Shown: in pieces, positions 33,356 to 35,737 of the stretch | How positions within the stretch are numbered: position 1 is the first letter of the stretch | Layout: each line of letters starts with the position of its first letter | NCBI GenBank assembly: GCA_016872175.1 | Contig: VHBA01000025.1 | Span: 1-35,806 of the forward strand | DNA length: 35,806 nucleotides | Direction of reading: 5' to 3' | Source of the DNA: Sphingomonadales bacterium | Lineage (GTDB): Bacteria > Bacteroidota > Bacteroidia > NS11-12g > UBA955 | The notes under the pieces: generated by a model | Told to the model about the DNA's origin: nothing | Seen by the model: the letters and a program-made list of their open reading frames with translations, nothing else | Databases searched by the model: none | Made by a program: the position numbers and the translations under genes

Positions 33356-33826
33356 TCATGGCTCTTTTCTGTTTCCCGATTGCTGCTGATGAAAGAATTG
33401 CGCCAGTTTGCTGAGTTCATCTGAATCCACCGAAAGCTCGGTTTCATAATTAGAACGGCTCCAGATTTCCACTTTGTTGCCATACGCACTAAGAACTACC
33501 TCATCAGTAAGTTCGGCGTATTCGCAAAGTTTTTTAGGAATCAGAACCCGCTGGGCGTTGTCAATCTGAACCAGGTTTGCACCGTTGGTGAAAATTCGTT
33601 TAAAACGGCGAATTTCAGGGCTCAAAAAGTCATCGACCGCGGTCAGCTTACCGGTTTCTTCCGACCAGTCTTCTCGGGTGTACAGAACGAGACACTTTTC
33701 AAATCCCCGGTTGACAACAAGTGTGTTTCCTGCGCTTTCAGGAAACTGCGCACGAAGCCTCGATGGTAAAGACAATCTGCCTTTCTCATCAAGCTTACAT
33801 ACATACTCGCCAATCAATCCGGACAT
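33356..33826 (-). CDS. mraZ: Transcriptional regulator MraZ
   Basis: The 156-aa protein has two AbrB-like half-domains: residues 1-77 with DEKGRLSLPSRLR (13-25), and 78-147 with DNAQRVLIPKKL (89-100). MraZ forms oligomeric rings and binds direct TGGGN repeats in its own promoter, repressing the dcw cluster in E. coli. Such repeats occur 38 nt upstream of this start (33864-33890), supporting autoregulation. It is the first gene of the cluster. Confidence 0.96.
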   Translation of the reverse strand: MSGLIGEYVCKLDEKGRLSLPSRLRAQFPESAGNTLVVNRGFEKCLVLYTREDWSEETGKLTAVDDFLSPEIRRFKRIFTNGANLVQIDNAQRVLIPKKLCEYAELTDEVVLSAYGNKVEIWSRSNYETELSVDSDELSKLAQFFHQQQSGNRKEP

Positions 33827-33863
33827 AGGTTTGGAATTCCGTCTGCTAAATAAAAACTAAAAA

Positions 33864-33890
33864 TCCCACTTTTTCCCACTTTTTACCCTT
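33864..33890 (-). promoter_or_regulatory. MraZ operator (TGGGN direct repeats) facing mraZ
   Basis: Reading the minus strand, AGTGGGA occurs at 33880-33874 and again at 33870-33864, an exact 10-nt period (TGGGA-AAAAG-TGGGA). A degenerate third copy, AGGGTA, lies one period further upstream (33889-33884). E. coli MraZ binds TGGGN repeats separated by 5 nt, which is the spacing seen here. Confidence 0.75.
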
Positions 33891-33902
33891 TTTAAACACC
33901 AG

Positions 33903-33911
33903 TTATCCACA
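33903..33911 (+). promoter_or_regulatory. DnaA-box match
   Basis: TTATCCACA is a perfect match to the consensus TTATNCACA. It sits 14 bp beyond the mraZ-side repeats. A weaker reverse match (TGTGGGTTA, two mismatches to TGTGGATAA) begins at 33936. A single nonamer can arise by chance. Confidence 0.4.
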
Positions 33912-33933
33912 TAACGGTATTAAATTCGGTTTT

Positions 33934-33954
33934 ATTGTGGGTTATTTTCACAAT
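33934..33954. repeat. Inverted repeat ATTGTG-N9-CACAAT
   Basis: Perfect 6-bp arms (33934-33939 and 33949-33954) are separated by 9 nt, a 21-bp dyad. The 15-nt arm-to-arm pitch would suit a dimeric regulator, but no partner is evident. Confidence 0.35.
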
Positions 33955-34015
33955 GAGATGATTAATTATTCAGCAAAAATAGTCAAAACCCTTGTAAATA
34001 CGATACTTTTTTAAA

Positions 34016-34032
34016 AGTGGGTGAAAGTGGGG
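34016..34032 (+). promoter_or_regulatory. Second candidate MraZ operator, facing the lipA-side genes
   Basis: On the plus strand AGTGGGT (34016-34022) and AGTGGGG (34026-34032) are spaced at 10 nt (TGGGT-GAAAG-TGGGG), the same pattern as the mraZ-side array but in the opposite orientation. The pair lies about 75 bp upstream of the -7 element of the 34119 gene. Confidence 0.55.
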
Positions 34033-34105
34033 TTAAAATTGTGTCTAAAATTCAGTTTTTGTCATATTGTGATGAAAATGGGAAAATCCACCTTCTCATT
34101 TTTAC

Positions 34106-34113
34106 TACCTTTG
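34106..34113 (+). promoter_or_regulatory. -7 promoter element of the 34119 gene
   Basis: TACCTTTG fits TAnnTTTG and ends 5 nt before the ATG at 34119, implying a nearly leaderless transcript. Confidence 0.55.
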
Positions 34114-34118
34114 TATAG

Positions 34119-34841
34119 ATGAGGATCTGGTTTTTCTTCATTCTCAGCCTGATGGCAATCTCTCTTTCAGCTCAGCCTGATGTTAGCCACTCCTTGGGTT
34201 TAGGGCTATCTCGGTTTGGTGTGTCCGCATCTTTTCGAAACGACAAAAGCCCCAATGCACTCAATACAGTCTCGATAAAGCCTTCAGGTTTTTATTTGGA
34301 TGCAGGTAATATTCAGCATCCCCGAGAGGTGGCTGTTGTGAATACTGTCTTCCAAAATGCAGGAACATATAAAGTAGATAAAGTGAATTATGTCTGGACT
34401 TTCCGGCCTGGTTTACTTTATACCTATTTACTGAGTGAAAGAACAGACAGAAGAGCAATCGGTTTGAATCTTACTTCCGGTCCGGGCATAACGCTGGCTT
34501 ATGTTTGGCCAGTGTATGTTACCATACTTCAGGTAGATCCCTTCGGAAACGAATATTTTACCAATGTGCGGTATGATCCTGACATTCACAAAACTACAGA
34601 AATTGCCGGTCGAGCCGGATTTTCTGAAGGTTTCTCCGAAGGTAAAATAATCCCTGGTTTAACCTGGCAGGGCGGGCTCGATTTTCAATGGGCTAATTAT
34701 CGCGGGGACGTAAACACGCTGACACTGGGTGGACGTGTGGAAGCTTTTCCTAAAAAACTGCCCATTTTACACAACGGTGTGCTCAATAAAAGTGTATTGT
34801 CTTCCTTTTATATTAATTTTGCATTTGGATTGGGAGGTTAG
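34119..34841 (+). CDS. Exported outer-membrane beta-barrel-like protein of unknown function
   Basis: The 240-aa protein starts with a signal peptide ([19 protein letters not shown]). The mature part alternates polar and hydrophobic residues in beta-strand fashion, is rich in Gly, Tyr and Trp, and ends with a strand finishing FAFGLGG, all typical of small outer-membrane barrels. A short internal duplication, GFSEGFSEG, occurs near residue 170. I do not recognise a named family. The -7 element 5 nt before the ATG supports the start. The lipA gene follows after 17 nt, so both are probably co-transcribed, away from mraZ. Confidence 0.72.
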
Positions 34842-34858: not shown

Positions 34859-35737
34859 TTGCTGGAGTTACCTGTCATATCTGCCGAGAAAGAACGCCGG
34901 CCTTCCAAACCTTCCTGGTTGAAAATTGCTTTGCCTACCGGCGAAAACTATACACGGGTCAAGCGTATTGTAAAGGAGAATAAGCTTCACACTATTTGTG
35001 AGGATGGCCGTTGTCCAAATATGGGCGAGTGCTGGGGTGCAGGAACTGCCACCTTCATGATTCTGGGCAATATATGCACACGCAGTTGTTCATTTTGTGC
35101 CGTAGCCACCGGGCGCCCCACCGAATATGATATTGATGAACCATATCGTGTAGCCGAGGCCGTGAAGCTGATGGGGGTGAAGCATTGTGTGATTACTTCC
35201 GTAAACCGCGACGAGCTTAAGGACAAAGGTGCCAGTGTTTGGGCAGCCACCATACGCGAGGTGAAACGGCAGAATCCCGAAACCACGATAGAGACATTAA
35301 TTCCGGACTTTAAAGCACAATGGGATTTGCTCTACATGGTGCTGGATGAAAGGCCTGATGTGGTTAGCCACAACATGGAAACGGTAGAAAGACTTTACAG
35401 AATTGTAAGGCCACAGGCCAAATATAGCCGGAGTTTGGAACAGATAAAACGTACCGCCGAATATGGCCTCAGAACCAAAAGTGGTGCCATGATGGGTTGT
35501 GGCGAAACACCGGAAGAGGTGCTGCAACTTATGGATGACCTGCATGCAAATCAATGCCATGTGCTTACCCTGGGGCAATACCTGCAACCCACAAAAATGC
35601 ATTTGCCGGTCGCTGAATTTGTTCATCCCGATCAATTTAAAGCATGGGAAACAGCAGGGCTGGCAAAGGGATTCCTGCACGTTGAAAGCGGTCCTATGGT
35701 AAGAAGCTCTTACCACGCAGAAAAGCACGTGCTTTAA
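34859..35737 (+). CDS. lipA: Lipoyl synthase LipA (radical SAM)
   Basis: The 292-aa radical SAM enzyme inserts two sulfurs into octanoyl groups on E2 and GcvH proteins. The auxiliary cluster is held by Cys47, Cys52 and Cys58 ([12 protein letters not shown]) and by the C-terminal RSSY motif (282-285); the SAM-binding cluster is at Cys73, Cys77 and Cys80 (CTRSCSFC). All are intact. No ATG precedes these motifs. TTG 34859 is taken as start because it gives MLELPVIS, matching Bacteroidota LipA proteins that begin M(I/L)ELP. It supplies the lipoyl group that odhB in this window needs. It ends 69 bp before the window edge. Confidence 0.96.

Follow-up and report, generated by a model that had tools for sequence, protein, structure and literature searches.

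Few bacterial regulators of the division cluster are as widespread as MraZ. Accounts of how its ring-shaped oligomer acts on promoters differ, and depending on the species it has been described as a repressor or as an activator. The operator of E. coli reportedly consists of TGGGN boxes. In E. coli and in M. genitalium, MraZ acts as a repressor of its own cluster (PMC8475190), and a passage of PMC7761207 also cites an activator role in mycoplasmas. In the Mollicutes, the MraZ site is made of AAAGTG[T/G] repeats, and the only such site in the M. genitalium genome lies at the mraZ promoter (PMC8475190). In Burkholderia, the repeats are seven nucleotides long with 3-nt spacers, and MraZ did not bind the distal half of the B. 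cenocepacia intergenic region (-386 to -136) when this was tested (PMC7761207).

Compared to these systems, the mraZ locus described here carries two arrays of MraZ-type boxes, A and B. The operators of E. coli (P_mra) and B. cenocepacia (P_mraBc) are direct repeats of 10-nt period that lie close to the promoter on the mraZ strand and have a GTG/TGGG core (PMC7761207), which corresponds to array A. However, these operators have one array only and no inverted upstream array has been described for them. The Mollicutes site, with its AAAGTGG core and direct repeats, resembles the consensus of both arrays (PMC8475190), but a second inverted array has not been reported there in the literature covered. 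We found no description of an inverted second MraZ array in a limited literature search, in which E. coli MraZ was covered through citing papers. We regard the locus as a new variant, in which the protein and the boxes are known and the inverted two-array arrangement is not described in the literature covered. Looping bipartite operators are found at lac, gal and ara. If a loop exists here, the likeness would lie in two operator parts placed around one promoter, a length-constrained spacing and a bridging oligomer. However, lac, gal and ara use palindromes and another protein fold, whereas this locus uses repeat arrays and is not a member of that group.

In the window, which is the whole stretch of 35,806 nucleotides that was analysed, mraZ is followed by rsmH/mraW and then by division and cell-wall genes. 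Its product matched MraZ structures that are multi-subunit assemblies (PDB 9qlr, 9qlg, 9sx6 and 1n0e; E ~ 1e-19). The features around the intergenic region are as follows.

33356-33826, minus strand: mraZ (PF02381), which opens the division and cell-wall cluster.
33843-33852, minus strand: TATTTAGCAG (TATTTAGCAGAC), an element kept by almost every member of the family, 12 nt downstream of array A.
33865-33879, minus strand: array A core, GTGGG-AAAAA-GTGGG, in the mraZ leader and in mraZ orientation.
33880-33911, minus strand: weaker boxes extending array A, family consensus TGTGGAwAA ... GTGGT ... AGGGG.
33974-33981, minus strand: -7 box TATTTTTG of P1, the proposed mraZ promoter; predicted start near 33969.
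34001-34003, minus strand: -33 position of P1, TCG in the window and TTG in most relatives.
34017-34031, plus strand: array B, GTGGG-TGAAA-GTGGG, a second MraZ-type array, inverted relative to mraZ (predicted sites).
34078-34082, plus strand: single box ATGGG, at offset 51 and in register with array B, toward the divergent gene.
34106-34113, plus strand: -7 box TACCTTTG of the divergent gene; predicted start 34118, one nucleotide before the ATG.
34119-34841, plus strand: divergent gene (omp), signal peptide and predicted beta-barrel, 240 aa, no Pfam family.
34859-35737, plus strand: lipA (lipoyl synthase), 17 nt after the divergent gene.

The plus-strand stretch that carries array B is AAAAGTGGGTGAAAGTGGGG. 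Its GTGGG boxes occupy 34017-34021 and 34027-34031, with TGGGT at 34018-34022 and TGGGG at 34028-34032. The sequence-only reading had noticed an opposite-strand pair with 10-nt spacing, which does exist and had been placed correctly to within 1-2 nt, and the single boxes that it named, GTGGG (33937-33941) and ATGGG (34078-34082), are present as well. It had also put both singles at roughly 10-nt multiples from the pair. ATGGG is partly conserved, at offset 51 from array B in four of seven congeners, and belongs to the extra boxes at offsets 21, 31, 41 and 51; GTGGG recurs in two of seven congeners and is probably a chance occurrence.

The pattern TGGGN6TGGG alone occurred twice in the window against 1.95 expected from shuffling, which is not significant. 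The fuller pattern AAGTGGGN3AAGTGGG, with at most one mismatch, had two matches in the 2.26-Mb genome, arrays A and B only, both upstream of mraZ; its reversed control had one match genome-wide. Exact GTGGGN5GTGGG was found four times in the genome, and the two copies besides arrays A and B both have unrelated linkers.

Conservation was followed in 26 mraZ upstream regions of the same family, which became 37 loci once named genomes were added. An opposite-strand pair with period 10 and at least nine of ten core letters was found in all 37, compared with zero to five loci at the other periods (ten tested), and period 10 alone was specific. The second array noticed by the sequence-only reading accompanies the first in every close relative. 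Array B is the most constant feature of mraZ upstream DNA that is otherwise hardly alignable and has diverged almost to randomness. Furthermore, the two arrays, each read on its own strand, share one consensus including the A-rich linkers (GTGGGAGAAAGTGG). Array B has the tandem GTGGG/TGGGN boxes, the 10-nt period and the place upstream of a mraZ gene by which MraZ operators are recognized. As for boxes on the mraZ strand next to the promoter, array A fits, but array B lies on the opposite strand and upstream of the promoter, and is therefore a variant of the MraZ operator.

The weaker boxes next to array A include TGTGGATAA (33903-33911, minus strand), a perfect DnaA-box-like sequence just upstream of the array. 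TGTGGAWAA was present in 32 of 34 same-family loci, and in the clade with LHGEY-type mraZ genes TTWTCCACA occurred in the upstream region of 13 of 16, directly before array A in the alignment. Either a MraZ box that has degenerated or some link to DnaA could account for it. On the other side of array A, the element at 33843-33852 takes the place of the proximal -7 box TACTTTTG of family f2 and may be a decayed or special second promoter.

On the mraZ strand, array B lies immediately upstream of P1, a conserved promoter of the Bacteroidota type (TTG-N19-TAnnTTTGC) that points at mraZ. TAnnTTTG stood 35-36 nt from array B in 29 of the 30 loci where it was found, usually with TTG 22 nt before it. 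In flavobacteria, TAnnTTTG at -12 to -5 is the -7 box of the main sigma factor, sigma-A (PMC9723704). P1 is therefore proposed as a promoter directed at mraZ, with array B at about -62 to -48 relative to its predicted start; the TCG that the window has in place of TTG counts against this reading. Array A lies in the leader, roughly 90-105 nt downstream of that start.

Arrays A and B stood 135-139 bp apart at 34 of the 37 loci; in genus g2 the gap was 127-129 bp. The 62-nt stretch that separates the -7 box from extended array A kept its length at 61-64 nt, with one of 73, and its median ungapped identity was 35%. This stretch keeps its length and not its sequence, so selection appears to hold the length. 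A pair of protein-binding sites that work together would require just such a constraint. In f1, where the B-A gap is fixed and the spacer diverged, sites for one and the same oligomer are predicted at a constrained spacing around a promoter, as in looping operators. A leader peptide between P1 and array A was set aside, as spacers of 61, 62, 63 and 64 nt are not multiples of three, and an RNA element was rejected, with no Rfam match in 33700-34300.

We hold with moderate confidence that a bipartite MraZ operator with inverted halves flanks P1, that array B forms its upstream half, and that it serves autorepression, probably with array B bridged to array A. According to this model, array B would sit just upstream of the -33 element of P1 and array A in the transcribed leader in the opposite orientation. 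MraZ, as a ring-forming oligomer for such 10-nt repeats, most likely occupies both arrays and would thereby keep P1 down. The arrays would probably be bridged by MraZ across a loop of about 137 bp. If the DNA formed a hairpin loop, the two arrays, for all their opposite orientation, would point the same way in space, and this would suit one oligomer. In several genera, array B continues in register toward the divergent promoter, which may be affected as a side effect. For array B, MraZ binding, the loop and the sign of regulation are all things we infer from sequence comparison; DNA looping between A and B is plausible.

Similar layouts were found beyond the family. Array A was present in most mraZ genes surveyed across the phylum, and many Bacteroidota had array A without array B. 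A strict phylum-wide search for the two-array pattern gave 9 of 395 genomes; most of the others were misses, as exact cores were demanded, and the survey of mraZ upstream regions took its place. In that survey, 23 of 38 genomes of family f26, a member of another class of the phylum, had inverted arrays, where other periods gave 2.8 on average; in other families inverted upstream arrays occurred in 12 of 66 cases against 2.3. LHGEY-type mraZ genes had an inverted upstream array at 12 of 20 loci, and at nine of these the gap measured exactly 191 bp. In f26, arrays B and A have a TTGACA/TACATT promoter between them. In f26 and the LHGEY clade, array B is 100-190 bp from array A and has no fixed distance to a -33 element, and one mechanism may not fit all lineages. 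Helical phasing of the gap was not significant over all candidate arrays across lineages (p ~0.12 at 10.5 bp); in lineages with multi-species support, a subset picked post hoc, p was ~0.004-0.006 after scanning 10-11 bp.

Other sequences were noticed in these upstream regions. Family f2 (L067-L079) has a conserved block, CCGTCCATAAACGCTAAT and TACGGGAATTTATNCCAC, some 100-190 nt upstream of mraZ, and also a pair that resembles array B but is weaker, CCCACATTCTCCCC, upstream of the gene. In the f26 genus g88 (L135-L137, around 1555-1580), the TTGACA of the mraZ promoter has a near-perfect inverted repeat, TGTGGAAAACTTTTTCCACA, just upstream of it.

On the other side of array B, the product of the divergent gene matched no Pfam family, even with E values of up to 1 allowed. 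It begins with a signal-peptide-like helix, and its AlphaFold model is nearly all-beta with a beta-barrel fold (pLDDT 86.5). The gene is paired with lipA across the family, even where neither adjoins mraZ, and with a gap of 17 nt the two probably form one operon; any effect on omp could therefore reach lipA. The adjacency of mraZ, omp and lipA, which the sequence-only reading had made a matter for related genomes, is kept across most of the family. Since its predicted start lies one nucleotide before the ATG, the divergent mRNA may be nearly leaderless. The spacing from the -7 box to the ATG is the same in several congeners.

The arrays were then compared where the neighbours differ. In genus g2, omp-lipA is absent beside mraZ and the divergent ORF reads like a glycosyltransferase, as judged on its sequence, but arrays B and A are intact. 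Unlinked omp-lipA pairs in g2, in other f1 genera and in one f2 genome had no TGGG/GTGG period-10 pair within 1.4 kb upstream of lipA; the array does not travel with lipA away from mraZ, and lipA was rejected as the target of array B. In other families, array B is kept where the upstream gene is co-directional or unrelated. The f26 genus g101 has upstream genes that are mostly co-directional with mraZ, and therefore no divergent promoter to serve there. Array B persists in g2 without omp-lipA, is missing from unlinked omp-lipA and recurs in f26 and the LHGEY clade; it therefore follows mraZ. It probably helps MraZ to control the cluster promoter rather than the neighbouring lipoate gene.

The earlier proposal was that MraZ on array B, together with the boxes toward 34106, controls omp-lipA as well as, or instead of, mraZ, so that envelope and lipoate genes would be tied to division genes. 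We consider such a bidirectional operator rather unlikely, although part of the proposal has stood. Extra boxes lie upstream of array B at offsets 21, 31, 41 and 51 (10n+1), toward the divergent promoter: one class had a phase sum of 6.67, and none of the other nine exceeded 0.64. In several genera the array can extend in register up to that promoter. The divergent -7 box lies 43, 52-56, 64, 74 or 81-85 nt from array B and looks helically phased (p ~0.02, eight values); the adjacency of the three genes and the short omp-lipA gap point the same way. Through the boxes that continue in 10-nt register, an effect of MraZ on the omp promoter is possible. However, the distance to the divergent -7 box varies over 43-85 nt, whereas that to P1 is fixed, and the behaviour of the array in g2, at unlinked omp-lipA pairs and beside co-directional genes argues against service to lipA.

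The fixed distance to P1 also bears on a purely activating role, in which MraZ at -62 to -48, a classical activator position, would contact RNA polymerase at P1 while array A represses or stalls transcription. The activator role in mycoplasmas cited in that passage of PMC7761207 agrees with it, but repression by MraZ is known from E. coli and M. genitalium (PMC8475190), array B of f26 and the LHGEY clade is far upstream, at no set distance from a promoter, and the fixed B-A gap would be left unexplained; we judge this role improbable. That array B arose by chance or serves an unrelated factor is strongly disfavoured and hardly credible: TGGGN6TGGG alone is expected about twice in the window, but the array stands out by its genome-wide uniqueness, its period-specific conservation in 37 of 37 loci and a consensus identical to that of array A. 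A bipartite inverted operator around P1 remains our preferred reading.

Extended to much of the Bacteroidota, the proposal would be that MraZ bridges two inverted arrays that share a helical face and have 100-200 bp between them, so that the DNA loops around the division-gene promoter, with a divergent promoter within reach; we put this forward tentatively and with some doubt. A conserved and length-constrained inverted second operator offers a testable architecture, whether a loop or a bidirectional complex, that is missing from the E. coli, Burkholderia and mycoplasma models of MraZ.
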